Shown piece after piece: positions 8,309 to 35,252 of a DNA stretch of 64,000 nt (its first letter is position 1; each line of letters begins with the position of its first letter). The position numbers were made by a program, and so were the translations under genes. Below the pieces are notes generated by a model. That model did not search any database, was not told the DNA's origin, and saw nothing but the letters and a program-made list of their open reading frames with translations. Location of the stretch: the NCBI RefSeq assembly GCF_910592395.1, contig NC_088309.1:4962501-5026500 (forward strand). The letters are read 5' to 3'. The DNA comes from Lineus longissimus. Taxonomy: Eukaryota > Nemertea > Pilidiophora > Heteronemertea > Lineidae.

Positions 8309-11300
8309 TCACCTTCGACTGGTAGGACCGTAGCTAAAATAAAAGACAAATCAAATGCTCCAATGATTTTTGGGATTCAGTACGAATGTTAATAAAAAAC
8401 AAGTGATCTTCCTTGACATGATACCACTAGTATAACAGAAAACGACAAACTCTAATAAGAACAAATATGAGACCCCTCGATTTAATCTCACCACCTCCAA
8501 GTACAACTGGGTGTATTTCATTGAAAATTGAACACCATCAATAATTGTATTAGAAAAACTCTTTCAGTTGGCAACCAAGAATTACTGGTTTTATCTAAAA
8601 TCTGAAATTTCACCCACCTTCCCAGTTGTCCTCCAGACATACTGAAATATTTGTTGAAATCGATCCTCAGCAGAAGCTGTGCTAGGTGAGGGCTGGCCTG
8701 GTGACTGCGAACACTTGATAATATGCGGAAAAGAAGACTTGACTGGCGTTGGAAGCTCTGAAAACAAATTTTGTAATCATAAATTCAGTCGAAATTGACC
8801 AGTGTATTGTGTGCTCATTGTTTGCTTATCTTAAAAGCCCTGTGGCCTCAACATCACAGAGACCAACACTTCTCCCAAGTTTCTAGCATGATATTGTCAT
8901 GTTCTTGTCGTCGTGATGTCATGATCCCAAGGAATCAGATATAACTGGGATTGGAATCAGCCTTATCTCAGAAGGGTAGCCAAAGGATTCCTTTCAGAAT
9001 AGCAGTGTAATTACCTTAGCAATGACTTCCAACTGCTCAATCTCCCACTCGGGGCCAGCATTGTCACCTTGGGTCACCAGGAGAGCAAAGTTATGGCAGT
9101 TTTCTAAAATCTCATTCAAACAGTTGGACACCTGCAAGAATTAAAATCATCAATTTCAAAATGAGAAAGCACAAGTACAGAACAAACCACGAATAGTTTT
9201 ACTCCCAACTGCTCAAGAACAACCCAGTTGCCTCGATTTGGTGTACGAATAGCACACACTAAAATCAATCCCATTCCTTGCCCCTGTATTCCCATATTTT
9301 CCCCGACTGCATTATCTAGGTCAGCCAATATAATTACGTCTCCGTACCGGTTTCATGAGTTGGAAAGACTGCGCAAGCAAAGCTGTGATGAACTGATCAT
9401 GAGAAAGCCTGATCGCCTCAAAATCTCGAGTAGCCTGGATCTTCTCAAGAAGAACACTGTACTGAGACTCTATAACATCAACCTGGAAAAAAATGAAAGA
9501 TAGTATCAAGGAAAAGAAAAAGTCAGCAAGATTTGGCTTTGAGCAGGAGGAGCGCGAGGAGGCTCATAGCCTAGTGGTTGACACTGCTGGCTAACATGCA
9601 GTAGGGCACATGTTCCATCCCGGGAAGAACCCAAGATTGTATTTCTGGATGAATTGGTGTGGTTGTCAAGGAACTAAAATTCGGTCCTGGCTCTTCACAG
9701 TCCTTCAAATGAAACTTAAAACTGGGTTGTGTCACAATGTCTAACCATGAACTGCCAACACATTACCTGTAGATAGTATTGCAAGTTGTCCACAAGGAAA
9801 GCCATGTGTGTCCTGAGCAGCCACTTGGCAGCACTCTGATCTGACGACTTGCTTCTCTTCTCCTGCATCTGGAGTGACCAGCATTGCTGCAGTGCCAGCT
9901 GAACACGCTTTACAGCCAACAGGAACCGGAACAACGTGTTGTATCTGAAGCGACAGCAGAATTAAACTCATACCTCATACCACGCTTGGTTTAAGCTGCA
10001 GTTGGGTCATTTTGGCCAAATTACACATCATTTATCATCTTATGAGCCATGTAATATCTGCTTAAGAGGAAGTCTCTTACTTCTTTTGAGCCCTTTAGCT
10101 AACCTTAGTGATACAGAAAGTAAGGCACTAACTTGTCTAGAACTCCTGGTGTAAACAAAATGTGCAGCGGCCACTCCACGTTGTAATCAAGTCTCAGAGA
10201 ACTCCATCCAGTCTCTGCTGTTGGAGGGCCAAACTGGGAGATTTCTGAGGTGATATCTGGCTTAATTTGCTCTGAAAAGGAAACAAAGGTTGAGTTTTAC
10301 CCCTCTCTGCGCTATGCGTGAGCACCATGGCCACGGACAGAAACAAGTCTGATATCAGGTCTTAACATGACTTCTTGAGTTTTTGAGTATAGGCCACCAA
10401 TTTGTTATACTCATGATGTTGAGTGTAGGCCCGAACTGACTGTTGGTGGTGTGTCCCAACTGAACACAGCATTGTCAAAATCTCAAGGTTGTACATAACC
10501 AGCGGTAATACTAATATTAGTAGTAATCCTTGTCACTTACTTTTTGGTGGTGCAGCTTTGACATCAACAATCATTTGAAATTTCTGGAGGAGATCATCAT
10601 CATCCAATAGCACGTTGTGGGCAGCTTGGTTAAATGCAACATTTACATCTGAAAATTTAAAATTTGTCATCATCACGCTATGCATTTTGAATAGCATTGG
10701 CTTAACCCATGTTTTTCATCCAAAATTTCTGAATTTGGAACATGTCCAAAGAGTGAAATATTTTAGCCAAGTGCCAACAGATATTTGTCATTCAGGTTTG
10801 AGTTCAGTTACGACGAAAATAGTGGATGGTAGATTGCTTAGGCTTTAGATTTTCGACGGGTCGTCCTGATATTTCGGAACCATTCTTCATCCATTTTGAG
10901 AGTTGATTCCTTGAATTATGCTTACCATGCTGAGTTGTTGAGGTTGGTGGCATCTTCAGCAAATGTTTAGCCTGGTCAATAAATGCCAGGAACAATTCCC
11001 CTCTGCCGAGAAGGAGGAAATCTTTCAAGATCTTCAACTGTTCGAACAGGTTGGACTCCTCAACAACAAGTTTCCAGAGATGCTGAAAAAGACCACTTAC
11101 TGTGAATTACTTGCCAAAGCTTTTTGCAAGAATGAAAAAGTGCTTGAACGAATCAAAGATAACTAGGTTAACAAGGCAAATTTAAATGGTAGAAACCAGC
11201 GCAAGGCACACAACTACATTGATCTAATAATCATACCTCAGCTACACAAGTCCTGATTCTGTCAATGCACTCCTCAAATTCTCTGAGGCTGAACTCGCTC

Positions 11301-13807
11301 TCTCTGGATAACTCATGAAGCTGTTTTGCAAACACCACTTCTTTGTTCTTAAGAATTGAAGATCCTAAATAAAAAAGAAAGGTAACATTTACAGCTCAAG
11401 TGATCCGGGGTTATTTTGAAGGAGCAGCTACTACATCAGCACAAAAAAAAATTTCTTGAAATATTCACGACAAGCACAATTCTGTGATCTGCATGACACA
11501 CAGAGCCAAGTATTCCAAGAGGAGTACGAGGCAGATGCAATTTACACTGTCACTACCCTTCCCCCAAGAAGTTTGTTAATAGATTTACCTGCTTTTTTCA
11601 TTGTGGTGACCCTTCTCTCACTGAGGAATAGCTGTACTGACTCGCCAACAAATAGAATCTTTTCAGCCACTCGCACTGGGATGTAGCATGGTAACAGTTC
11701 TCCACGAATACAAAATTGTTCATTTGTCGGCATCACACCAATGCCTTTGTCAATTTGCTGAAAAAGTACAAGAGGTATGATAATGATGTACATGAGTAGA
11801 AAAAGCTTTCCGTGTAAATTGAGTATGCCCCAATTTGCAGATGGAGAACTCTGAGTTTATGAAACTCATCCTACTCACCAACATCTGCTGCAGCATCTTC
11901 CCACTCAGGCCACTTAGTCCAAGCTCATCCTCTTCTGCCTGGATCTCCTGCTTCGGAGCAGTTGATGGAATCATCTGGATGAAAAACTCCTCATGCTTAT
12001 CAAGCAGCAAACCATGGAGCATCCAGCTTGCAAGCTGTTTGTACAGAACACCATGACATGTGAAGATAATTCTGGAAGCAGAAGAACACTAGCAATTAGA
12101 AAAATAACTGTCTTTACATCAACTTTACGCAGTAACACAAACAAGGTAATGATTTCAACAAGTTTTATTAAAATGTATGAGTATCATTGGCAAATTCATA
12201 TTGATCTGACATGACAAGGTCCCTACATTTAATGGACTAACAAGGTCCCCACATTTAACTTCACTCTTTAGATACCACACTTACTGTTGTAATGCTGCTT
12301 TGACTATAGGTAAACCATGCGAGGAGTTTTTGTGCAAGATGTCCAAAATGTGACAACCATGGGCATTTTGAGATGAGATCTGTTCCAAGATTGAAACCAA
12401 GAAGGGGAACATGTGTCGATACTGAAACAACATCAAAATGAATGTAAAATGCATCAAGTATTTTGGAGCTAAAACAGTTCCGCCTTCACCAGCCAGGAAT
12501 TGTTTTTTCTTCATACAATTACCAGGTACATTGATACATGCAGTAACTGAATGTACAGGATTCCTTAAAAGATTTTTCTCATGTAACATCTAACAATTCC
12601 CAAAGGAACATGCACACATTAAGAAAAGCTAAACTAGTTTAAACTCACTTCATCTAAAGAGCTCTGAACAAATGCAACTGTCAAGTGTGGGTCAGCAAGG
12701 ACGCTCTGTTCAATATCCAACAAACTTTTCCTGTAGGGATCCAGCACTGAATCAAGGCCATCACAAAATGCTTTTAGGTAAAGGCCTGGCTGAAGACAAC
12801 TTGATTCTGAAATGAGTAATTATGAAAATTCTAAAGTGAGACTGACAGGGCTGAGGAAACAGTCTAGGTGAACAAAAGTTCATGTACGGTAAGAGAAGGT
12901 GGTAGTACATTTGTAGCCTTTTGTTGTCATTTTCAAGAAATAAAACTAATAATCGTTGCATGTCATAGTCAGCCACTAGGAGTCCTATCAGTATTATAGC
13001 AAATTACCGTACATCATAACACTATTTTTAATGCAAAAGAGGAGTTAGTTCTTTCTTGAAGATTTTACAAAGCAAGTTTACCATACCTGGAGGTGGAATC
13101 TTTGTCACAGCTGGGCAGCCACTATTTTTCCGGATAAATTCTTGAAATCTGTAGTAATAGCTCCCAAGTTCACATAATCTGTTAAGTAGCTCCTCCTCAG
13201 TGCGACTAATGAAAGGGAGGTCTGGGACGAGCTGGAAGTTAATATCAAAGGAATGTTCATCAGCATTGAATCCTTTTTTGTGATCCTATTCCTAAAAATC
13301 CTAACAACAAACATCCTCCCATTATTTCACAAAATCTCTGTAGTGTAATTTTAAATACAAAACTCAACAAGTGATACAGAACCCACTAGCAACAGAACTT
13401 AGCATCATTCAAATATTTTTCCACTTATATGCAACTATTGCGTCTTTCTCATTCAATCAATCGACAATAAATACCCTACCCCCTGGGGCAGGGGCCCATG
13501 CAGGAGTTTCTTTCGATACCACTACCAGTCCAAATAATATATATGCAAACGTGAAAAAGGTGCTTCCCCTAATGGATAGCTGCCTCTTCCATCCGTATAC
13601 ATCTTATGGTCATAGAAGTTACATGTAGAGGTGACACTTTTTTGGGTCACCCTGACTGGTGCCAGTGGTGGTGAGACTGAGAGAAAAATTACTTTTTAGA
13701 AAAGATCCAAGAAAAAAACATTACTGTACCCTGATGTCAAACTTTTCATTCATAACAAATATGCTGCCCGGACACCCACTAAGGGCAAGAATTACTTCAT
13801 GCAACAT
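8309..13807 (-). CDS. TUBGCP4: gamma-tubulin complex component 4 (GCP4), 15 exons
   Basis: GCP4 is a core subunit of the gamma-tubulin ring complex that nucleates microtubules at centrosomes and spindles. It has an N-terminal GRIP1 domain for lateral packing and a C-terminal GRIP2 domain that binds gamma-tubulin. Exons are 13807-13730, 13231-13087, 12806-12649, 12421-12285, 12071-11879, 11757-11589, 11364-11237, 11082-10926, 10648-10541, 10271-10133, 9944-9767, 9482-9348, 9131-9015, 8757-8618 and 8333-8309. They total 2007 nt, 668 residues (human 667), with every junction in phase. Landmarks are LALSGCPGSIF at the start, WMLHGLLLDKHEEFF, LPCYIPVRVAEKILFVGES, LLGRGELFLAFID, THMAFLVDNLQYYLQVDV, ATRDFEAIRLSHDQF and LLLRIDFNKYF. 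The exon 1 donor (AG|GTACAG) is weak; the others are standard. Several plus-strand open frames inside it are shadows. Confidence 0.96.
9541..9680 (+). repeat. possible tRNA-derived SINE fragment in TUBGCP4 intron 11
   Basis: TAGCCTAGTGGTTGACA resembles a pol III A box. About 40 bases on, TGTTCCATCCCGGG resembles a degenerate B box. The spacing fits a tRNA-derived SINE head. No tail or target duplication was identified, so this is tentative. Confidence 0.35.
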
Positions 13808-14065: not shown

Positions 14066-17000
14066 ATGGCTAATGCTTCAATAGCAGGGGGGACTAATGT
14101 TACTGGAACGAATCTTCATTATGCTGACATTATTGTCATCGTTCTATACTTCGTCATTGTCTTGGCGATCGGTATTTGGGTGAGTTGACAAGGTTTTTTT
14201 TCACTTGTCTTTCATACATGAATGATGACATACTATACTACTACTAGGCCCTGGGCCTATATTTATGAAATTAACTGTAAAAAGTGTATTAACTTTAATT
14301 TTCATACTTTTGTGTTTACCTACATGTCAGTCATACATGGTCCACTTGCTGTATCTCATCTGTGTTGCCTACTCTAATACTGATATATATCTCGCCATGG
14401 AGGTATTATTACCTCCATGATCTCGCACACTGTCGTCAGTAATTTATCGTCATGACTCGTGTACGTACATGATTCAACTTTTATTGGGAATTGACAACGT
14501 CGAAGTAAATAGATGGCGATATTATTATTACGCATGACCTGGTGATGCAATATCGCACAACGTTAAAAGGCATAAAGAGGTCCTTGTCAGTATCATCTCT
14601 CATCGGGGTCCCCACCTCTAGTACACTCTTCACTTACTGACACTGGCTCAGCATTGAAATGCTCCCATTATCGAGGCCTTGCCGTTCAAATTCCACGGTC
14701 CAATTTGCCATGTACATTTCATAAAAAAACCCACAGTATCCTCATGGACGAGCTTTCTATTGCCAGTGGTGCCTGCATGCAATATGTAAGATTAAAATGT
14801 TTCTTTCAGTCATCATGCCGAAACCGAGGTAGTGTTGGTGGATATTTCTTAGCAGGGAGGAGTATGCACTGGATTCCTGTAAGTATACAGTATGGGACAT
14901 GAAATTAAGTTACAACTTAAAATAGTACTACCGCTATACTACTTCTAAGGGTCTCTTAAAGTCACCATTAAGTACATGTAAATAAAATTTGTTTTTTGTT
15001 GAAATATCAGTTCTAAAAAGATATTTCTCTTGTCCTGCATTCATGAAAGCAATTATTTGTTGCAGGTTGGTGCTTCACTTTTTGCCAGTAACATTGGAAG
15101 TGGCCACTTCATCGGTTTAGCAGGATCAGGGGCAGCTAGTGGAATTGGAATCGCTGTATTTGAATTGAATGTAAGTCACACCTACATGTAAAAAAACTAA
15201 GTATTTGATGTCGGCGGATGTGACAGGAATATTTCGACTTTGAAAATACTGAGGATTTGTCATGTTGTTGTAAATGACTGAAATTGTCTGAACATACTAA
15301 CGAATTCCAAGCTATTCTTTTGATTAGTTTTCCAAAGTTCGACTGGCATGACAAATAGGGAAAAATGAACGCACTATTCAAACTTTTTTTCATACTTTGT
15401 CATTTGTTTTTTCATTCAGGCTATCTTTGTGTTGATGATCCTAGGATGGGTGTTCGTCCCTGTGTATGTGGCTGCTGGTGTAAGTATGACTTCCTTCACC
15501 CTATTTAGCCGGTTGAGGAGTGTCTGTTACATATAGGCCTGATCATTCATGTTCAGCAGTGTTTGCCTAAACTCCTTGTCCTGTTAAATTGATGTCAAGT
15601 TCTCAGAAAGATAAAAATGAAATTCAGTGAATAGTGTTTTTGTGACAAAGTTGTTTATGGTGGTAACTCAATTTCTTATCAATTGTTATTTGTAAAGATT
15701 AGCACCATAAAATTGACTAAAGTTAATTTGTTTATGTTTTGTCTAAATCATTTGGGGCTCCAGTGCACAAGCTACTGTTCGGATGTCTTTGAAATCCAAC
15801 CAGTAGTTCATGCTCCAGAGTCCCAAACAATGTCGATAAAAACGTTTTATGAATGGGCTACCAGTATACCTATCAGTCGATCCCAGCCACTGACTCCTTT
15901 TGAAGCTTTTGCAGCTAATGTGGTAAAAGTTGGGTGATTAGAGATGTGAATTTACTTCGGTAGTCAGTTTCTGTGGTTCCGTTTCTATGATCCAGATCCT
16001 CTCTTAGACTTCTTCAAGAAATTGTAAATCAAATTGTTGGTTGTTTTTCAGGTTTATACCATGCCCGAGTATCTCCGCAAACGATTTGGAGGTCAAAGAA
16101 TCAGGGTATATTTAGCTGTGCTTGCCTTGCTCTTGTATATATTCACGAAGATCTCAGTAAGTATAAGTAAACATGTAATATTGACTCTACTGTGTTTGCA
16201 GACCACCAATTTTAGACAAAGGTTTGATGTCCACAAACCTTTGACAGTAGGCCAGCAATTAGCATCATTCTGTGATGGATCATGGCAACTTCTTATATGT
16301 TTGTGACTTCTGCTTGGTGAAATATTTTTAACCAACGCTAAACTTAAGCCTTAACCCTGGTCATAAATGTTGCCCTTATGTCATGCTCTGTTTCTCTTGG
16401 CATGAATAATCTCATACCTTGACTTTGAGAAACCTTATATTGTAAATTGAGGATAAAAGTTTAGAGGCCATTTCAAATCCACATATCCTGTTTTGCAAGT
16501 TCTTGCTCAGGTTGCATAAAGATATGTTGAATGACATGAATGGTAGACAGCACCCTACTATTATCACGAAAGTACTCTCAACCTAAAGCATTGTCACTGA
16601 GGCATTCAAAAGGGCATGGTCATGTCACTGACCTTATTGGCCAAAGATTCATGATAAAGCTTTCTGCACTATTCATGTTGAATTTGATTTTGAATAAACT
16701 GAATGAGATTAAGAAGGGATATGACTGAAATTAATGTAACATGACAAAGGCCTGTGTGTTTATGTTAACCAAGTTTAAAGTGGTGATATCTTTATTTCAT
16801 CCCAGGCTTGAAATAACATTTATATGATAATGTAATGAATGAAATTGTGTCTTTTCATGAAGGTATGACCAGGTTACCATAAACTACACAATGAGAAAAT
16901 GCAAATTTTTATTTGACCAGACAGACACTAGGCCAGAATGGCCTGATATCGGTCCTGTTTCATGTGAATGATACTTTATACATGCTTTAGCACTAAAGTG

Positions 17001-20000
17001 ATTGAATGTATTGAAGTCTTTTGGTGTCAGACAGTTCATAGAAATCATAAAATTGAAACATTGAATAATTTATCTTAACTTGGAGTAGGAGGTGCTTTTA
17101 TTGACTACAAGCTAACATGCAGATGAAAGTTACACTGAAAAGTTTATCAGGAACAGTAACATTGTCCAAAAGAAGATGCAGTATAATGAATCGAAATAGT
17201 TACTGTCTGAACTGCACCTTTTAGGCCTATAACCATGTTTGGCCGTTATATTTAGAGCAATGCCATTTGATGTTTGGTCTTACCCTTTTCCTGTATCTTC
17301 TAATCTGTCATTGAGAAGTTAACGTGAATCCTGTCAGTCTTCTCTCATCATAATGTGATACTTTTCAGGCTGATTTGTATGCTGGTGCTGTATTTATTGA
17401 ACAATCTTTGAAATGGAATCTGTACGCATCCGTCCTGCTACTGCTTGGTATTGCAGCTCTGTTCACAATCACTGGTAAGTCAAGTCCTGGACAACTTTCA
17501 CTATTGTGAATGTTTAGTTGCATGCCACTGTGTTAGGGCTCCAATTGGTTTATTGGCCAAGGAGAAGTCGGTCACAAGGTGCTCGTGTTTCGCACTTGGG
17601 TGGGGTTTCTTGTCATGGCAACATGACCATGTACATGAAGTATGAGGACAAGGCAATCAAGGAAAAGCAATTTGCCCAAAGTCACAAGCGATGTGTCAGC
17701 ATAGGTTATTGGACCCTTGGTATCTATCAACTTAAAAACACCTAATTTTGTCATCCATTTTTTGTTGTTCTTGAGTCCTATGTCCTCAGATCTAAAAGGG
17801 ATCTCTTCATTGGCTTTCCCTCTTCATTCATAGAAAGAGTATCGATTAAGAAATAAAATAGAGCATGTCTCTTTCATAATGCTTTATATTTGTCCGCAGG
17901 AGGTTTAACTGCTGTGATCTGGACCGACTTTATTCAGACGATCATCATGGTCATCGGTGCCTTTGTTCTCATGATTCTTAGTAAGTATATTTATGACATG
18001 GATGACTACCGATCTTCTTTGCTGATAGTGATATATCCCATGTTTGAATATCAAATAAGAATTGCTGCATGTCTGAATTTCATATTCAGTTGCAAAATCA
18101 ATTTTGTCTTTTTAAACATGTGGCAGACATTTTACTGGAAGGCCCCAACTTGCACCAAATTAAAAAAAAACAACAACATTAAGTTGCATGTATTATCAGG
18201 CAGTCACCAGTTGGTGCACACTCAAATATCTATAGTTTGTATTTCAACAGGTTACTGAAATATTCATGTCAATATCTGGTTTAAATGATCAGCCTGTGTT
18301 GCCTAATATTTGAGGGTGTGCACACCCAAGCACAATGCAAGCACAATCCTGTTCAGATTTTAATCTGGGTGTATTTACTTATGTCTTGTCATTGATTAGA
18401 TTGTTGATTTGAAAAACATTAGAACTTCAACCCAATGTAGAAGTGCAGTTTTGATAAAAAGTGAAAGTCAAAAATGGGAATGCAATTAGAAGAAAAGCAA
18501 AATGCCGTTCCAGTATTCAACTTTCATAGTTTTTACAACGTGGTTGAGTCTAGTTGGGAGCAATTTCATTGTTCAAAATGAGTGATATAAGAGAACAAAG
18601 GTATTTCTATATTACATAATTGTGCTGTTGTTTTTCTGAAATGATTACCATCTTAAATGACATCGATACTCCACTGGGTTTGTTATGCATTAATAATGTT
18701 GTAGTCATTGGTTATTCATGTATGCATACCTTCACCAGTGTTTCATTTATTTTTGAGCGTTTCTGTACAAATAGTAACAAATTCACGCTAGTCCTGTTTC
18801 AAAAGTTCTAGCGCTTTGTGCATTGCCACCAATAGAGCCCAAAAGGTTTTCATCACACCTTTGCTGATATATCTATTGCTTTTCTTATGCTCTAACATGT
18901 TTCTATGCGTGCTGCTATGATCTAACCCCCTGTATGCTTCCTGCTAATCCAATAAATATCCCCCTATATCTTGCTTCTCTGCTTCATCTCATTTCAAGGT
19001 TTTATGAAATTGGGTGGATATCAACAAGTAGTGGATGCCTTTATGGTATCAATTCCGCAGGAAACAATTTACTCGAACAGCACTTGTGGGTTTGTCCCAG
19101 CAGAATCTATGCACTTTATTCGGCCTGTCACTGACTCCCTCTTGCCATGGCCTGGTGTATTCTTTGGCCTCACTGTCAACTCTGTGTGGTACTGGTGCTC
19201 TGATCAGGTCAGCTCAGTTTTTTAGGTCAACTTTTCCACTAGATCAGAGTAGAAGTGCCTGCGAAAGCTTTCCTTTTAGTGGCACTTTCCTATTACAACA
19301 TACATGTAGCTGAAATATGTAATTGATTTGAAGCCATGTTAATAGAAAGATAATACATGTAATAGCTTCAGTGCCCAAATTGTACGCTTTCTGCAAATAT
19401 ATTTCATGATGTGCAGCACTGGTGTTTTTTATAGCTTCATTCCTTTTACCGTATTTTCCGGCGTATGACCCGCGGCTTTTTGCCCTCAAACAGGCCCAAA
19501 AAGTGGGGGTGCGGGTAATACAAAGGTGCGGGTCTTGCGTGGATTCTGAGAGGGATAAGCCCCAACCCCAAAGAAAAAAAAGGGGACCAAACTGGTTACT
19601 TGATAAGGATTTATGTCCATCGTTTTCGCATTGTTTTCAACCAATATTTCCGCCATGATCGCATAGTTTGTGATGTCTCCGCTAGGGAAAGTAGTTACGG
19701 CCATGCTGGAATTGATCCACTTTGGTTAACAATTAAAAAAAAACATGGCGGTTCTAGGATGTCAACATCAATGAATGGCTTACTATTTTTGGAGAATGCG
19801 GGTCTTGGAGCAGTGCGGGTCATAATCAGGTGCGGGTCTTGCGTGGCTTTAGGTAATGGTCAAAGGGGGTGCGGGTCATAGGGCAGTGCGGGGGATAATC
19901 CGGAAAATACGGTAGTCCTGATACCTTGTAGATGTACTTGTAGAGATGTGACCTTGGCATATTTGCATGAATCCGACCCAACCTTTACCTACCTCATTCC

Positions 20001-23000
20001 CTCCGTCCTCTAGGTCTCATTAAGGTCGGCGGCCATGATGCAGTGGTCAATCAATTCTTCACGTCCTGGCCAAACACCACCAGAAACTACAATGCCTCCT
20101 CCAACTACACTACCTGTGGTATCCCTCCCGCCAATTCCATGCACCTCATGCGCGCCGCCAGTGATGGAAATCTACCCTGGACAGGGATCACGTTCGGTCT
20201 CACCGTATCGTCCATTTGGTACTGGTGCTCTGATCAGGTCAGTCAAAGAGTAGAGTAAGCACTTTCTGCCTCTTACTGGAGTATGTCACTTGGCCATTTG
20301 GATTTTCCAGTCCCTATTAGAGAAGGTGGGTACCCTTTGATTTCTCCCAAGAATGGCTGTGCTTCAGGCGAAGGTAAGGTAGGTTTTTCAGGGACTTCAA
20401 TCACTTCAAATGCCTTGAAACGAATGCAACTTAGAAGTGGAATAATAACTGGCCCAGAGGTGCTGTCTGTCGAATGTCAATTTTATTGGCTTTGAAACGT
20501 GCTGAACTGCTCCAAACCCCTCACCCTTGCATGTTGACAGCTCTTTACCTGCATGAACCTAAAAAAAGCATGACCAAAATCCTCAACTTTATTTTATTTC
20601 TGCTTGCAAAGGAAAGAAATATCATTGAAGTTTTCCCTAATGCAGGTTTCACGAAAGTAGGTGGGTATCAAGCAGTAAAAGATGGTTATTTTGAAGCCAT
20701 CCCAGAAACAACGTTGTACAGTAATGCCACATGTGGAATCCCTGCTTCATATTCATACAATTTGATGCGAGGAATGGAAACAGATCTCCCGTGGACTGGG
20801 GCCATCTTTGGCCTGATGGTATCAGCAATCTGGTACTGGTGTTCGGATCAGGTTTGTATGTTAGCTTAGTTGTCTTCGGCTAAATTCCTTAATGAAGCAC
20901 TTACATGTAGACATAGACATAGTCTTTATTTTGTAATTATACTTTTTAGCCCATCTCTGTGTAATCCCTTGTCTTGTTATGCTATGTGTGGTATGATTGT
21001 GCTTCATTTATATGTGGTCTTGTGTCACTGTAATGTGGCCTTACCGTATATGCTAAATATGGTCTTGTTGCACTATATATCAGCTCAGGATGTTTCTTGA
21101 GGCTTTTGCATTGTTCGGCTTTTTGCCAGACATTTCAGTTTTCCAAAGAGGTATTTTCTTCAGTTTGTGTTTTGAAACATGTTGTCTTTAGTTTAATTAC
21201 TTCCAAGATAATTGACTTAATCTTGCACAAAATGCCGATAGGGTTATGCAAAGAAATAGAGCTTTTATTGAAATTGCCGATTATTGTCACATACGATATA
21301 TGACTGCAGGTGGCAGTGATTTATATTTCTCCTTTCCGGGGCGCTTTAGACACTTGTTTTACCGTTTAGGTCATTGTGCAAAGAGCCCTTGCTGCAAAGG
21401 ATCTGTCGCATGCTAAGGGTGGGACCATCCTGGCAGGTTACCTCAAGATTCTTCCCCTGTGGCTACTCGTCTTCCCAGGAATGATTGCAAGGATCCTCTT
21501 CCCAGGTAAACACCAGAATTTTGCTTTTCTAACTGCGGAGATTTCTGCGGTTAGTTATGTAAATTGCCACATGGCTCACATTTCGATTCAAAAGAGCACA
21601 GCAATTAACCTGAAAAAGGGGCTGAATGTGTGCTATTGCTGTTTTCCTCTTCAACTAACCTGATGTATTTTTTTCACAAGATGAGGTTGGTTGTGCTGAC
21701 CCTGCCATCTGTAAGGCACTCTGTGGGAAGGAACGAGGTTGCACGGACATCGCCTACCCAAAGCTGGTGCTCAATTTGATGCCCGACGGTGCCCGAGGTC
21801 TAATGTTGGCGGTGATGATGGCCGCACTGATGTCATCATTGACGTCCATTTTCAACAGCGGTAGTACCATTTTCACCATGGATATCTGGCGAAGGATCAG
21901 GAAGCATGCATCTGACATGGAACTTATGATTGTTGGAAGGTGCGTCAATCCGAGGACGTATGAATTTGACTTCATAAAGATCATCATAATTCGGACTAAA
22001 GTATTTTTGGGTGGTGTAAAGTGATGTTTCTGACATTGCTTAACTATTATTTGATGACTTGGCTACTTGTAAGCAAGTACACATCTTTTGCTATGATATG
22101 GATTTGAATATCAGCATTGAGCTGATACAGAACTGGAAGCATCTTTGCAAATAAAAACAAATCATAATTTACATTTTCTAGTTGAAGTCAACATATTTTT
22201 CCAAACTGTATTGGTCTGATGTATACAAATGCTAATTCATTCTCATCTCTGTCTCTATGTAGGGTGTTCGTACTTGTCCTCGCGGGTATTGGTATTGCAT
22301 GGATCCCGATCGTACAGAGTGGTGCCGAGCTGTTCCACTACATCCAGGCTGTTACCAGCTACCTGTCGCCGCCTGTCTGTGCAGTTTACGTTCTAGCTAT
22401 CTTCTGGAAGAGAACCAACGAACAAGTAAGAATTTCTCATTCTTAAACTTCCCCTCACGATGTAGTAATACTTCTCTTAAGTTGTTTCATCACCCTCGTC
22501 CCAGGCAATTTATTAACAGATACCATATGCATAATAATGTTTGCATAGAAAAATTGTACAGAGTGGTGCCGAGCTGTTCCACTACATCCAGGCTGTTACC
22601 AGCTACCTGTCGCCGCCTGTCTGTGCAGTTTACGTTCTAGCTATCTTCTGGAAGAGAACCAACGAACAAGTAAGAATTTCTCATTCTTAAACTTCCCCTC
22701 ACGATGTAGTAATACTTCTCTGAAGTTGTTTCATCACCCTCGTCCCAGGCAATTTATTAACAGATACCATATGCATAATAATGTTTGCATAGAAAAATTG
22801 CAACGAAACACCATTTAGTACCGCGTACATTGATATGTGTGAACTTTTTTTCATTTTGGAGTACTTATTTTGGAGTAGGTAAAAGATGCGTAAAAAATGT
22901 TGCTCTAAATTTTGAAATTAACTTTTTCTTTCTAGGGTGCCTTCTGGGGCCTGATGGTTGGCCTTGTGACGGGCCTCATCCGTTTTGGCTGGGAGTACGC

Positions 23001-23927
23001 CTACCCACCCTATCCCTGCGGACAGGAATATTTGGACACCAAACCCTCCATCATCTCCAGTGTGCACTATCTTCACTTCGGATGCATCCTTTTCGTGATA
23101 TCACTCATAACGACCATTGTCATCAGCTTGTTTACCAAACCTATCGATGATAAATACGTAAGTCACCTTGATTTTTGTTAGTTCAGTGCAAGCATGTTGG
23201 TGTGATCCTTTTAAACCCATGTGATCCTTTTAAACCTATTTTGTATACTAATGGGTTGTTCTGAAAACATTATTTCCGTCTTGTTCTAATAAGGCCATTT
23301 TGAGTAGAACAAGACAGAGATAATGTTGGCGCTAATCAGTCTCATTTGCACCTTACTTATGTTATGTTCTTCTGCTACTTTTACAGTTAATCCGTTTGAC
23401 ATACTGGAGCCGCTACGACAAGGGCGAGCGTGTGGATATTGATGAGGAAGAGAAAGAGGGCGCTAAAGTTGCCGCCATGGAATTGGAAGGAAGAGACAAC
23501 GAGGGCATGTCCAAGTCATCGTCTGCTGAGGCAGTGGTCGACCAGCCTGGTGACTCGGTGGTGAACAGTCAAGCACAGCTTGCTGGAGGTTAGTATAGTT
23601 TATATCCTGTTGTTCATTTCCCATTAGTATATGTAAAGCCACACAAAAATTTATTAGGGTCAGTCACCTAAAGTCTATTAAAGTAATAAGTCACTGCACC
23701 CTTTCGTTACAGAAGGTGAACCTGATAAATCCAAGTGCCGCAAAGCAGGGGAATGGATCTGTGGTATTGAGAACCTGAAAGAGGAGGAGATCAGCCCAGA
23801 GGATCTCAAAATCCTGACAGACAAGGCCATGAGCATCGATGAGAAACCAAAGTGGCGCCGACTTTGCAATATCAATGCTGTTATTCTTATGTGTCTTGCT
23901 ATCTTTGTCTGGGCTTTCTTTGCCTAA
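14066..23927 (+). CDS. SLC5A: SLC5-family Na+/glucose-type cotransporter with a mutually exclusive exon cluster
   Basis: This is a plasma-membrane sodium-coupled sugar symporter of the SGLT group (SLC5A1/2/4/9-like). Exons are 14066-14179, 14810-14878, 15066-15170, 15420-15479, 16052-16156, 17369-17474, 17900-17980, one of 8a/8b/8c, 21370-21505, 21681-21939, 22263-22425, 22936-23157, 23387-23588 and 23713-23927. Use of 8a, 8b or 8c gives 681, 686 or 680 residues (human SGLT1 664, SGLT4 681). Transporter signatures include [19 protein letters not shown] (sugar-site Asn and His retained), [19 protein letters not shown], and [16 protein letters not shown] with the Na+-site serines. Exon 11 carries [11 protein letters not shown] with the sugar-site Gln. 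The end, AIFVWAFFA, matches SGLT tails. All junctions are GT-AG and in phase. The exact paralogue and substrate cannot be told from sequence alone. Confidence 0.95.
18999..19207 (+). CDS. SLC5 alternative exon 8a
   Basis: 209 nt between TTTCAAG and the donor GTCAGC, preceded by a long pyrimidine tract. It starts by completing a split Ser codon (A|GT) and ends on a codon boundary. The peptide opens [15 protein letters not shown], carries one N-glycosylation sequon (NST) and ends [11 protein letters not shown]. It aligns over its whole length with 8b and 8c. The residue two before the first Trp of WYW, matching human SGLT1 Thr287, is Ser275 here. Confidence 0.92.
19447..19914. mobile_element. 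MITE-like element between alternative exons 8a and 8b
   Basis: The ends are perfect 15-bp inverted repeats, TACCGTATTTTCCGG at 19447-19461 and CCGGAAAATACGGTA at 19900-19914. The outer TA bases could be a TA target duplication, as in Tc1/mariner/pogo-type insertions. The 468-bp body is G-rich, with TGCGGGTC-like words repeated near both ends, and has no transposase. It looks like a non-autonomous DNA transposon; the family was not identified. Confidence 0.8.
20014..20237 (+). CDS. SLC5 alternative exon 8b
   Basis: 224 nt between CCTCTAG and the donor GTCAGT, with a strong pyrimidine tract. Start and end phases equal those of 8a. The peptide opens [15 protein letters not shown]. Its loop is five residues longer than in 8a and holds three sequons (NTT, NAS, NYT) before the conserved Cys. 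It ends [11 protein letters not shown]. The SGLT1 Thr287 equivalent is Ser280. Confidence 0.92.
20646..20851 (+). CDS. SLC5 alternative exon 8c
   Basis: 206 nt between AATGCAG and a weaker donor, GTTTGT. Phases equal those of 8a and 8b. The peptide opens [16 protein letters not shown], carries one sequon (NAT) and ends [11 protein letters not shown]. The SGLT1 Thr287 equivalent is Ala274, so the hydroxyl is lost in this version. Confidence 0.92.
22312..22799 (+). repeat. 244-bp tandem duplication covering part of SLC5 exon 11 and its intron
   Basis: 22312-22555 and 22556-22799 are near-identical. One difference noticed is CTCTTAAG against CTCTGAAG. The unit begins inside exon 11 and ends in the following intron, so the second copy has the 3' part of the exon and its donor but no proper acceptor. 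It should be skipped as intron. It is either a recent duplication or an assembly artefact. Confidence 0.95.
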
Positions 23928-29366: not shown

Positions 29367-31160
29367 TTACAGATTCGTCTTCGGGTAATCATCATTATCA
29401 TCATCATCATCATCATCATCATCATTATCATCATCATTATTCACGGCATAGTAACCAAATTTGATTTTTGCCGTTTGAAGCTGTTTGAAGGGCGACCGGC
29501 AAAGTTTAAACGTGGCATCAGCGTACCAGGTCTTTGCTTTACTCAGGAGGTGGATTTGTTCATCTGTTGCGAAGATGAAATGCCGGCGATCTCGGACATT
29601 GATGTCAGCTTTAAAAAAATTTTCAGCGACGCGGTCCTCTTGGAGCTCAAATTCCAAGTCTGTGGGATCTTGCGGGCGATTCTTCTGGCGAAAGCGATTA
29701 GTTGCTCTGGTTAAGCAGCTCATTTTCGGTAGCGAAGGACATGGGCCTGAGTTCACGTGCTCAAGAAGGACTTCAGTCACAATAGCGGATGCTGACTTGT
29801 ACACGTTTTCGGCGGCTTTTTCTTTCATGGACGCGGTTATCTTGGAGACGACTGCTGCACCTGGTTGTGCTTGATGGTTATGCGCATTTCTCCCGACAAT
29901 AAATTGGTCCCCCTTCTGTGTCACCATAGCGCGACACGGATTATGCTTCGGCCGGATCGTGCATTGCCAATCAGTTGTAATATTGTTATTACGACGGCGC
30001 ATAACGTTGTACGTGTAACCGTGGCTGTCAATCAATTTGTTTCTTGACCGTTTAGTCCCGACGTCAACGATTTGAAACGTCAATTCGAAGTCTTCCGCGG
30101 CCGGCGAAATTGAACTAGGTTCCTCAATGGATGATTCATTTATCTCCGGAATTCGTACGTCAGGTCGAAAATTGTATGTCTGATCCCCGCGTGGTAAAGT
30201 CTCGTCTTCGAGCAGTGTGGAGGCATGCGTAGGCGATGGTGGAGTTATGTCCCGGAATAGGTACATACTGACGTTGGCGGTGGGGTCAGGTGAGGCGGCG
30301 GCGGAAATCTCCCGCATAGGTGGCGATGGACTTTCGCATAGTGTAGTAGAGACGTCCATGTCCATCATTGGTGGTGGATTTTCGCGTGGCGTAGTGACGT
30401 CCGCGGTGCCAGTGGAGTCAGGTGAGTCGTCTATCATGGGTGGTGGACTTTGGCGAAGAGGATTAGTGACGACGTCGGCGGTGGGGTCAGAGACGGCGGA
30501 GATGTCAATCGTTGGCGGTGCCGGTGGGTCAGCAGTAGTCGGACTTGATGTCATCACTTTGCGCTTGCGCTTGTTGGGCTGTTCGTCGTGGACCAAGGTT
30601 CCTTTTCGCTTGTTGTCAACTTTTAGGAGAGGCACAAAATGGCTGGGAGTCCATGTTCCGCGATTAAACGCAGCACTTCCAGAGGACCAGAGGATGTGAA
30701 TGGCAGCATTCGTTCCCCTGTTCTTTGAAGTTCGCGGAACAAACGTCGTGCTGAGGCGGCGTACAGCAGGGTCCATATGACCATTCATTGGCGGAAACAT
30801 GGATACAATCGAGCGGCCGACCACTGAGGCGAGAGCGTGAAAACACCACGCGGAAGATTCGTTGCGTCGGAGGCAGTCAGAACAGGCGTCATCAAAACTT
30901 TGGGTGAGCGCGTCCCATACCGGATCAAAATTCTGTTTGATGTAGAAATCGCGGTGAAGAATTAACTCAATGGCCGTTCTTACGCGCAGCTCGGGGGTTT
31001 TAGAGAGACTCGTATCTCCGCAGAGCGCTACTGATACCGCGTGATAGAGACAATCCCCATCACCAGGAATGCTGACAGGTAGCCTGTTTCGCACTCCCCC
31101 ACTCTTCTCCAAGATACGCTGTGCGTTTGTGTCGATAGCGTGTACGTTTTCTTGGTACAT
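29367..31160 (-). CDS. OTU protease - FLYWCH - truncated MULE transposase
   Basis: 597 residues on the transposon's minus strand. The OTU-type cysteine protease domain is at about 25-180: GDGDCLYHAVS with Asp34/Asp36 and Cys37, and the distal His173 in PSHFVPLLK. A proline-rich linker with repeated SPPPM-type words runs from about 190 to 350. The FLYWCH-like zinc finger is at about 358-428, with W397, C399, C408, H426 and H428. Then comes the N-terminal part of a MULE transposase, ending FIFATDEQ and KTWYADATFKLC, where Asp547 matches the first catalytic acid of the DDE triad. After PFKQL the frame runs into a (GAT)n tract giving poly-Asp and stops. The second Asp and the Glu are absent, so transposase activity is not expected. 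The start is the first Met; upstream in-frame sequence is possible. Confidence 0.85.
   Translation of the reverse strand: MYQENVHAIDTNAQRILEKSGGVRNRLPVSIPGDGDCLYHAVSVALCGDTSLSKTPELRVRTAIELILHRDFYIKQNFDPVWDALTQSFDDACSDCLRRNESSAWCFHALASVVGRSIVSMFPPMNGHMDPAVRRLSTTFVPRTSKNRGTNAAIHILWSSGSAAFNRGTWTPSHFVPLLKVDNKRKGTLVHDEQPNKRKRKVMTSSPTTADPPAPPTIDISAVSDPTADVVTNPLRQSPPPMIDDSPDSTGTADVTTPRENPPPMMDMDVSTTLCESPSPPMREISAAASPDPTANVSMYLFRDITPPSPTHASTLLEDETLPRGDQTYNFRPDVRIPEINESSIEEPSSISPAAEDFELTFQIVDVGTKRSRNKLIDSHGYTYNVMRRRNNNITTDWQCTIRPKHNPCRAMVTQKGDQFIVGRNAHNHQAQPGAAVVSKITASMKEKAAENVYKSASAIVTEVLLEHVNSGPCPSLPKMSCLTRATNRFRQKNRPQDPTDLEFELQEDRVAENFFKADINVRDRRHFIFATDEQIHLLSKAKTWYADATFKLCRSPFKQLQTAKIKFGYYAVNNDDDNDDDDDDDDDNDDYPKTNL
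29388..29440. repeat. (ATC)n microsatellite at the transposase break
   Basis: A run of ATC/ATT triplets reads as poly-Asp/Asn on the minus strand. It replaces the expected continuation of the transposase. Confidence 0.9.
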
Positions 31161-31330
31161 AGGAGTAAAGCCTTGGGGCGGTACGGCAATCGGGCCGACA
31201 TTTCGGCGCAGGAGAATTTGCTCACGTCTTGCTGCTGCCCTCAGGAGGTCAGAGGTGATGCTAAATTGGTGATAATAAATTTGTAGTCACCACCGGGAAT
31301 TATAGTAGGGTAAAATAGAGTAAAAATAAT

Positions 31331-32478: not shown

Positions 32479-33621
32479 CTACCGTTTGTGGTCGAAGTTC
32501 ACATCGTTGAATTTATAGAGATTCTTTTTTTCCACGAAAAGAGTTACTGCGTGTGTTCTGATCGCAGAATCGCACCAGCGCAGATAGTAGATCCCTCCTA
32601 ATCTGTCCATGAACTCCAAATAGTCCTTCACGTCCCCTCTCCGCCAAAACTCTACCTTGGATATCTCAAAACTTGTGAGGAACATTTTCGGAAATTTTAG
32701 CTGATAGAAAAGAGTAGGGTGGTGGGACTTGGCTTTGATATATGCCTCCGTTGCCTCCCACGTGCCAAGTGCGCACCACCGGTTTTCGTCATAGAGTGTT
32801 TTGTACCCATAGTAAGCATTGTTGTCCTTCATTCTCTGGAAGACATCATATCCAATCTTTCCACCTATTTTCGCATCCGAGTCAATGCGCCAGTAGTAAT
32901 CTAAATGTTGCAGGACATTATGTTCGTGGAGCTTTGTGAGAAAGCGACAAAAGTTCCTCTGTTTGATTCCGTCTCGAGCTTCCCCATAACGACCGCAGTA
33001 TGTCTGTGAAGGAGACTCATGGTGAAGATGACCTGACGGTTTCCCTTCATCGATTTTCGGAGAAATTTTGAGAAAGAATAGCTGTGAGCTTGTACGCTTT
33101 CGGATGAGGTCGGCTAGTTCTGGCATGAGCTCATCAACTAAGATGATAACCGGGTACTTGTATTCCTTGTTGAAATGAGTGTCCAAACTTCTGAGCATTC
33201 GCGTGAGATCGGAAAACGAGTTGTCCCGAAAAGGTAGGAGGGTGACAATGGCAGCTTTTGGACGTTTCCCTTGCCATTTTGAGATCAACCGCTGAAAGCG
33301 CTCCTCGTCCCTATAAGAATGGTGTCTGTTCGGTTCAATGGAATTTTTGTCCTCCCCACCATTCGTTGCACTATTTTGCACATCAGTTTCACCTTGTCCC
33401 GGCGCCTTAGTTTCTTTATAATCTAATTGAGCTGCGTATCTTTTAGACGGTGTTTTTTTAATCAGTTGGGCAGGCACAGCTGTGACAGCCTGTTTGGCAA
33501 TGCCCCCCTTTCCCCAACTGGAGAGAAAAATCAAAATCAACGGCGCAACAAGGAGCATCAGTGCAGTTATTGTAACTAAAATGAAAAGACAAGTTTGAAA
33601 TGTTCCTTGACGGAGGTGCAT
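32479..33621 (-). CDS. GT15 (KRE2/MNT1-type) alpha-1,2-mannosyltransferase-like protein, intronless
   Basis: 380 residues in one uninterrupted exon. Residues 11-33 (CLFILVTITALMLLVAPLIL) form a signal anchor, giving a type II Golgi topology, followed by a ~90-residue stem. The catalytic region matches yeast Kre2/Ktr proteins: FCRFLTKL, then LDYYWRIDSDAK (yeast YYWRVEPD, the DxD-like metal site), TSFEISKVEFWRR (yeast SNFEIADLNFWR), and GGIYYLRWCDSAIRTHAV with the terminal KFNDVNFDHKR. GT15 enzymes add alpha-1,2-mannose from GDP-mannose in fungal O- and N-glycans. The family is known mainly from fungi, so its presence here is notable. Upstream 5' non-coding exons are possible. The substrate in an animal is unknown. 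Confidence 0.88.
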   Translation of the reverse strand: MHLRQGTFQTCLFILVTITALMLLVAPLILIFLSSWGKGGIAKQAVTAVPAQLIKKTPSKRYAAQLDYKETKAPGQGETDVQNSATNGGEDKNSIEPNRHHSYRDEERFQRLISKWQGKRPKAAIVTLLPFRDNSFSDLTRMLRSLDTHFNKEYKYPVIILVDELMPELADLIRKRTSSQLFFLKISPKIDEGKPSGHLHHESPSQTYCGRYGEARDGIKQRNFCRFLTKLHEHNVLQHLDYYWRIDSDAKIGGKIGYDVFQRMKDNNAYYGYKTLYDENRWCALGTWEATEAYIKAKSHHPTLFYQLKFPKMFLTSFEISKVEFWRRGDVKDYLEFMDRLGGIYYLRWCDSAIRTHAVTLFVEKKNLYKFNDVNFDHKR

Positions 33622-35252
33622 TGGAACGGCTAATGTCGCTACGGCATTATAAGAAGAACAGTTACCGTATTGAAAATGTCACAGCAAAGCTTCCCTCTCC
33701 AACTTATAGAATGGTATTTGAACGCCTCTTCCGTCGTCTGCTAAAGTCGTCCCGGACTTGATTTGGAATATTGGTTTGTACCATGTCAGGCAATTTGATG
33801 TCGATCCTGCTACCACACCAACTCTGTATCTAGACAAGTTCCACTTATAGAGGACGGGGTATCGTCTAAACTGTTTTCGGAACAAGTCGTTTACTCGTCG
33901 GTACTCCTCCAATGCGCTAGTGATGCTGACAGGTTTTGATCGACAAAAAGTACCCCCTATATATAATCGTCCACGTCATCCATTTTGCGGGACACGCTCT
34001 TCCAAACAAGGAATCTTAGTCTGATATTCGATACAAACAAAACTGTACGAGCTGCGCTTACTAGAATAAACACCCCGGGCAGAATCTCATGACTATGGCA
34101 ATTTTCAAGATTGTTGGTAATGTGTCTTTGCGTTGCATTGTTTACTCTTACCACATTGGTATTGTGACAGGCACTCAAAACATGGGCTATATTAAAATCT
34201 AATCCACCAGCCCGACCACTCGAGTGGTAGCTCCCGGCGGTAAAGTGACTCAGTGTATTTTATCCTCAACAGGCCAAGCGGCCGGTGTGACAGGAGTTCC
34301 CTAGAATATATAAGTGAAACAACTCATTAGGCCGTGCCACCAGGGAGTTGTAATAATCTTCAGCTATTCTCACTATGTGTTCAGTCCTAGTCTTGATGAG
34401 TACACTGTCCCTTACATTCTTTGCCTTACATTATTACTTTATATTCCCAGACCAAAGTTGGAAAACTCCGAATAGTATGTTTGAAATGCAATAAGTCATT
34501 TTCATGAAGAATGTCACTTCCGTGATCCCTCACAGTTCAACTAATATTTTTGGGTGCCAGGATGACTTTTTTGTGACACCCAGTAACGACGACTTTCGGA
34601 CCAACTCCAAATTCCAACTTTTATCACTGCCCAGAAAGATTATACCGTGTCGCCATCTAGGACAATTTTGCTGACAAGGAAAATGAAAAAAGTTTCCATA
34701 TTTTCACGATTTTATCACTGTAATGTCTTGAATAAGATAAAATAAAATGGAGGAAATAGAGGTATATCAATATATGAATCGATTTTAGTGCAGGGAAAGC
34801 TCTTGTTTTTACCAAAATGGGTAAAAACTGGCCTTCTTCATTATAAAAAAATGTCGTACATTTTCATAGTACATTTTGTACATGACCCATAACCAATAAA
34901 CCATCCCATGATAGCCAGGCCATGCACTACACTACCCCCAACTTCAACGACTAGGCTGCCTCTTTTTGTCTGTGAAATTATTCTCCTTCCAACACCTACC
35001 TGTACCCTGTGGTTAGTGATGTCATTCACTCAGTCCAGCACATGTAGGCCTACCCCCTTACATGTTGAAGGTGAAAGTTATTGCAGATAGAGTCTAGCTA
35101 AAGTAAGACCTGTAACTGGCTTGGTGGGAGTCTAGCTAAAGTAAGACCTGTAACTGGCTTGGTGGTTGTTCATCTTGTTGTATAAGTAAGTCAATCATGA
35201 GCAACAGCCTGACAGTTTGACATTGCCTTAAATGATTTGTTTACTTTTCCAG
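33622..35252. other. intergenic between GT15 gene (-) and AF9/ENL gene (+)
   Basis: This should hold the GT15 promoter and the short first coding exon of the AF9/ENL gene (in vertebrates only a few codons, MAS-type). I could not place that exon with confidence. An open minus-strand frame at 33679-33912 matches nothing known. A 38-bp tandem repeat lies at 35091-35165. Confidence 0.5.
35091..35165 (+). repeat. 38-bp tandem duplication
   Basis: Two adjacent near-perfect units begin AGTCTAGCTAAAGTAAGACC. Each unit contains AAAGTAAGA, which resembles a splice donor. It lies about 90 bases before the first identified AF9/ENL exon. Confidence 0.9.

Follow-up and report, generated by a model that had tools for sequence, protein, structure and literature searches.

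The window analyzed here is the whole 64,000-nucleotide (nt) stretch of the nemertean Lineus longissimus (contig NC_088309.1, positions 4,962,501 to 5,026,500), a species whose genome the Darwin Tree of Life project has published (PMC8593623), and all coordinates below refer to this window. It contains a predicted SGLT4-like gene of the SLC5 family on the plus strand (14066-23927), for which the spliced model gives 14 exon positions. The eighth position is occupied by three copies in tandem, exons 8a (18999-19207, 209 nt), 8b (20014-20237, 224 nt), and 8c (20646-20851, 206 nt), which lie between the shared exons 7 (17900-17980) and 9 (21370-21505) on the same strand. These are the positions given in the original prediction, which was made from the sequence alone and proposed that the three copies are mutually exclusive exons of an SGLT-type transporter, and the spliced model recovered all of them.

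Structure of the exon 8 cluster

The assignment to the transporter family is consistent across several comparisons. When spliced with exon 8c, the gene encodes a protein that matches, from end to end and with 100% identity, the NCBI entry "sodium/glucose cotransporter 4-like [Lineus longissimus]" (P0001), which bears the SSF domain (PF00474); the same domain scores 461 bits in the 8a isoform and 459 bits in the 8b isoform against a cutoff of 22.8. The best-scoring solved relatives of the protein are SGLT1 and SGLT2 chains, and the sugar-site residues N78, H83, E102, Y290, W291, K321, and Q457, as listed in PMC6133168, are all conserved when read by eye in an alignment with human SGLT1. Those outside exon 8 sit in shared exons. 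On these grounds the gene belongs to the sodium:solute symporter family (SLC5), is of the SGLT type, and resembles SLC5A9/SGLT4.

Each of the three copies is preceded by AG and followed by GT, its first two bases complete a serine codon that is split after the last base of exon 7 (A/GT), and it ends on a codon boundary. All three lengths equal 2 modulo 3, and each copy together with the 13 other exons yields one open protein, of 681 amino acids (aa) with 8a, 686 aa with 8b, and 680 aa with 8c. The five other combinations all terminate early, at aa 229 when exon 8 is skipped, at aa 396 with 8a and 8b, at aa 288 with 8a and 8c, at aa 293 with 8b and 8c, and at aa 374 with all three. Four copies would restore the frame by arithmetic, but the gene has three, and the frame is kept only when exactly one of 8a, 8b, or 8c stands between exons 7 and 9. 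The earlier claims on phase, length, and the cost of joining or skipping copies were all reproduced in this way.

The splice sites of the three copies also appear usable, as had been proposed. Pairing of the donors (CAG/gtcagc, CAG/gtcagt, and CAG/gtttgt) with the U1 end has an energy of -6.9 to -7.5 kcal/mol, compared with -4.5 to -9.9 kcal/mol for constitutive donors, and the acceptors hold 17, 17, and 12 pyrimidines in 20 positions compared with 9-16 at constitutive acceptors. All of these sites score in or over the constitutive range, with the exception of the 8c acceptor, whose AG-free stretch of 13 nt is shorter than any other in the gene (at least 14 nt elsewhere).

Taken together, the copies are adjacent internal exons of similar length (206-224 nt) and homologous sequence (51%-58% protein identity), they have the same phase and compatible splice sites relative to their common neighbors, and their joint inclusion or skipping is predicted from the stops to leave no functional product. 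We therefore consider it probable, at roughly 0.83, that they are three mutually exclusive exons, forming a cluster that arose by tandem duplication within an SLC5A9/SGLT4-like gene.

The introns that separate the copies measure 806 nt (8a-8b) and 408 nt (8b-8c). An element resembling a miniature inverted-repeat transposable element lies at 19447-19914 and fills approximately 470 nt of the 8a-8b intron; its inverted ends measure 27 nt (TACCGTATTTTCCGG...), and GTGCGGGT repeats occur inside it.

Homology and selection among the three copies

The homology claimed for the copies is borne out at the protein level, where 38 of 70 residues are identical between 8a and 8b, 35 of 69 between 8a and 8c, and 40 of 69 between 8b and 8c. 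When each exon peptide was searched against the whole window with tblastn, the other two copies were recovered at E values between 3.4e-22 and 1.5e-20, and no further match was better than 0.15. Codon-aligned identity is 0.60-0.65 at the first codon position, 0.76-0.78 at the second, and 0.28-0.37 at the third, and synonymous divergence (dS) is not estimable for the exon pairs, whose synonymous sites are saturated (the NG86 method returned no value). None of 2000 neutral simulations for any pair reached the observed amino acid identity, and only 105, 122, and 262 of 2000 remained free of stops. Silent positions that are nearly randomized beside a retained protein sequence indicate that these are old exons under purifying selection.

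A search of the window with the full-length protein found no further copies of exons 1-7 or 9-14 save a partial copy of exon 11. Because no other exon copies are present in the window apart from this one, 8a, 8b, and 8c are not separate genes; independent genes were one of the two outcomes that the original prediction had named as a refutation.

Residues encoded by exon 8

Exon 8 was mapped to residues through the human SGLT1 alignment rather than a predicted structure, and it corresponds to residues 222-295 of that protein, which comprise helix M6 together with an external loop. In the human protein, T287 and W291 are in contact with the C4 hydroxyl of an inhibitor's sugar, L286, M283, and T460 with the group at C5, and the inner gate is sealed with the help of D294 and Y290 (PMC9616851); glucose is bound by Y290 and W291 (PMC6133168). 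All three copies keep W289-Y290-W291 and D294, in a shared WYWCSDQ stretch, as well as a cysteine in the loop that is directly preceded by an N-X-S/T motif. They differ in 8a, 8b, and 8c, respectively, at positions 286 (N/S/S), 287 (S/S/A), and 284 (T/T/M). The loop varies throughout, and 8b exceeds 8a by five residues and 8c by six. Judging from these residues, sugar affinity or selectivity may vary among the three proteins, and 8c, with alanine at the position of T287, may handle the C4 difference between glucose and galactose unlike 8a and 8b.

Relatives and age of the cluster

The original prediction had called for a search of SLC5 genes in related species, and this brought to light an 8b-type exon, an 8c-type exon, and a gene model with two copies. 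A homolog search scored 7976 proteins, of which the best 120 were examined; 118 of these, all 560-800 aa long, entered an alignment with the three isoforms, from which P0002 and P0005 were excluded because of their length. Among these 118, exon 8 is nearest to 8b in 84 proteins, to 8a in 26, and to 8c in 8, the last including the Lineus protein itself. The mollusc and brachiopod proteins that come nearest are 8b-like, and in another group of molluscs (with Crassostrea, Saccostrea, Mya, and others) exon 8 is of no clear type.

One relative, P0004, consists of a 662-aa frame within a 2436-nt contig and for that reason probably derives from a transcript. Outside exon 8 it joins Tubulanus and Lineus, with a Shimodaira-Hasegawa-like approximate likelihood ratio test (SH-aLRT) support of 99 in a quick tree built from 61 rows after omission of one short row, and is thus probably nemertean. 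Its exon 8 is nearest to 8b (0.64, compared with 0.54 for 8a and 0.50 for 8c). With 8c in the Lineus protein, the same gene would then be recorded with different exon 8 types in two apparent nemerteans. The Tubulanus protein (isoform X2) has an identity of 0.68-0.96 to Lineus in each of exons 2-12 except exon 8, where it reaches 0.45-0.51 to any copy, as would be expected if it used yet another copy.

A search with the 8c region (37 proteins) placed an exon of Gordionus sp. (Nematomorpha, on a 64-Mb contig) far ahead of all others, with 72% identity and 117-118 bits against 85 bits for the next. Given the rest of the protein, the Gordionus exon is an outlier toward 8c (z 5.3, 0.72 compared with 0.55) among 149 relatives, a set drawn from 157 after removal of P0116, P0121, P0001, rows shorter than 400 or longer than 800 aa, and rows that overlapped too little. 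It is also the first outlier for 8b (z 3.4) and the third for 8a (z 2.5), so that part of the effect reflects a generally conservative exon. The exon tree unites 8c with Gordionus at 98/96 (65 rows hand-picked for lineages, 76 columns, with a bootstrap that had not settled), and the rest-of-protein tree places Gordionus beside priapulids and arthropods (support of 91, not starred) and not with Lineus.

The model P0116 of the crab Chionoecetes opilio contains two successive and different exon 8 copies and is unique in this among the 118 aligned proteins; their joining is probably a prediction error, and neither copy groups with any Lineus exon with support in the exon tree. Isoforms X1 and X2 of Folsomia candida SGLT4 (P0127 and P0128) differ solely over the equivalent of exon 11, and the models of two Daphnia species (P0105 and P0112) differ most over that same stretch, which suggests a second site of mutually exclusive exons in arthropod SLC5 genes. 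The Folsomia isoforms imply that exon choice in the SGLT4-like family is not limited to nemerteans.

It is possible to read an age from these relationships, and the cluster is probably old. If 8c and the Gordionus exon truly share an alternative-exon ancestor, the cluster would be older than the split of the two protostome branches, and the splicing choice would date back more than 500 million years. That the cluster arose before the protostome split, or before the nemerteans, is suggested without being proven. Convergence or gene conversion could also account for the likeness between 8c and Gordionus. Forcing 8a, 8b, and 8c into one clade costs 35 log-likelihood units and is not rejected (approximately unbiased test, p-AU 0.085). 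The corresponding values are 0.026 for the five nemertean rows, 0.129 for 8b with 8c, 0.111 for 8a with 8b, and 0.135 for 8a with 8c, from tests that use approximately 70 residues and groups named after the tree was seen, uncorrected for repeats, with a single p below 0.05. A wider scenario is offered tentatively, since we place the odds somewhat against it. Here the choice of exon 8 would be an ancient feature of protostome SGLT4-like genes, with at least the 8b and 8c types already present together in the ancestor of Nemertea and Nematomorpha, and choice of exon 8 (and also of exon 11 in the springtail and perhaps in Daphnia) would give many invertebrates several sugar transporters per gene, where vertebrates have several SLC5 genes.

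Choice of exon and alternative explanations

We propose that one of 8a, 8b, and 8c is spliced between exons 7 and 9, and that nonsense-mediated decay would clear the skipped or joined transcripts, which stop early. Frame and decay together would leave single inclusion as the sole productive outcome. The choice itself may be made by trans-acting splicing factors according to tissue or stage, a mode favored by elimination over other control mechanisms. Among these, steric or U2/U12 incompatibility is unlikely, given the lengths of the two introns between the copies and their uniform GT-AG sites.

Several observations count against a mutually exclusive cluster. No Dscam-like pairing of docking and selector sequences in intron 7 or the 8c-9 intron exceeded controls (12 of 30 and 15 of 30 randomized regions equaled it) in a scan of a single species that compared approximately 500 nt in each of the two introns with 120 nt upstream of each exon. 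A hairpin around the 8a donor (19180-19270, arms 19188-19205 and 19242-19259, donor in the loop) was no more stable than expected (z -1.26, with 25 of 200 shuffles equally stable). Among 457 pairs of similar sequences within 157 proteins, the 80 most alike include none that differ solely in exon 8, a comparison in which clustering at 90% identity would hide such pairs. The P0001 cluster (90% identity) of the protein database has a single member, so that neither 8a nor 8b is found in an annotated Lineus protein there; other annotated Lineus isoforms, which at more than 90% identity would fall in that cluster, were absent from the sources of the database. A search with the 8a region returned no specific ortholog (12 proteins, the best at 49% and 80 bits), and in the exon tree the end branch of 8a, at 0.49, is longer than those of the other two copies (0.29 and 0.33; the median for all rows is 0.28).

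The last of these observations are also what would be expected if 8c alone, or 8b and 8c, were the working exons and 8a, perhaps with 8b, were decaying or rarely used, since the sole annotated Lineus protein found contains 8c and 8a lacks a specific database relative. Yet all three copies have an intact frame and splice sites as well as WYWCSDQ, the cysteine, and the N-X-S/T motif, and in the neutral simulations few runs stay open and none retains the observed protein identity. An 8b-type exon moreover occurs in the orthologous and probably nemertean transcript P0004, and we regard decay or rare use of one or two copies as unlikely. That every double or triple inclusion introduces a premature stop would also fit poison exons, which would mainly lower the amount of transporter and add no distinct proteins; a poison exon, however, has no need of an open frame, of homology, or of key residues, and single inclusion of each copy gives a complete SSF protein (8a and 8b by domain scan, 8c as the NCBI protein), which makes this explanation quite improbable. 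Identities of 51%-58% could likewise be left by old tandem duplications of the whole gene from which the other exons were lost, with no splicing cluster at all. Between the copies there is no trace of any other exon, and their phases and boundaries fit both neighboring exons exactly, so that this last explanation is the least credible of those considered. The intact, conserved, and mutually incompatible copies are thus best explained as alternative exons chosen one at a time.

Other features of the window

The remaining exons of the transporter gene, all on the plus strand, are exon 1 with the start codon (14066-14179), exon 2 (14810-14878), exon 3 with the equivalents of N78 and H83 (15066-15170), exon 4 (15420-15479), exon 5 (16052-16156), exon 6 (17369-17474), exon 10 (21681-21939), exon 11 with the equivalent of Q457 (22263-22425), exon 12 (22936-23157), exon 13 (23387-23588), and exon 14 with the stop codon (23713-23927). 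A 244-nt tandem duplication with 99% identity (22309-22796) covers the final 117 nt of exon 11 together with the beginning of its intron, and the extra copy contains an in-frame 108-nt stretch (22562-22669) with TACAG just before it; this is either a recent duplication or an assembly error.

Head to head with the transporter gene lies a gamma-tubulin complex component gene on the minus strand (10804-13285), which has a Pfam match to the GCP C-terminal domain and an N-terminal match slightly under the cutoff. Further along the minus strand are a long open frame with a FLYWCH finger and a sub-threshold OTU match (29370-31286) and an open frame (32482-33678) that matches the glycolipid 2-alpha-mannosyltransferase family (PF01793), a mainly fungal family.

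Comparison with known systems

Substitution of tandemly duplicated exons is well known in general. Of 12 human gene families that have it in common with fly and worm, 6 are ion transporters, and SLC12A1 has a third mutually exclusive exon (PMC9741552). For SLC5 genes, no paper on mutually exclusive exons appeared among those listed by our searches of open-licence main texts. Papers containing both "mutually exclusive exons" and "SLC5" include none on SLC5 exons as far as titles and the beginnings of abstracts tell; "SLC5" is absent from the main text of PMC9741552, PMC5740500, and PMC7954323, and "SLC" from that of the Kassiopeia paper (PMC3923563). A search of open-licence papers on nemertean sugar uptake likewise gave nothing useful, and one on NKCC2 returned no paper.

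The earlier statement that no such cluster was known in SLC5 genes agrees with these searches, but it needs qualification for sequence records, where the Folsomia candida isoforms X1 and X2 resemble the Lineus case in belonging to the same family and differing over one internal exon-sized stretch, and depart from it in that this stretch is the exon 11 equivalent around Q457 and not exon 8. Chionoecetes opilio P0116 resembles Lineus in having homologous exon 8 copies in tandem, but there are two of them and both are joined in one model.

The exon clusters of other carriers known to us affect ion, phosphate, or zinc carriers. Those of SLC25A3 and SLC39A14 consist of two exons each and belong to other families, which sets them apart from the Lineus cluster. 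Both are carrier genes with mutually exclusive exons, and those of SLC25A3 lie inside a folded domain (PMC5740500). In Lineus, the exchanged segment contains the helix that contacts the sugar and shuts the inner gate, and one gene may therefore yield transporters of differing sugar preference. The three exons would thus provide a natural set of variants in one backbone, on which the determinants of SGLT selectivity and affinity are directly testable.

In SLC12A1 (NKCC2), the exons named A, B, and F alter ion affinity and location in the kidney and are proven in RNA. That gene belongs to another family and its exons affect another helix, whereas the Lineus exons, known from sequence alone, would swap the sugar-site helix of an SLC5 transporter. 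SLC12A1 is nevertheless the nearest functional parallel, as it too encodes a solute carrier coupled to sodium and has three mutually exclusive exons in tandem.

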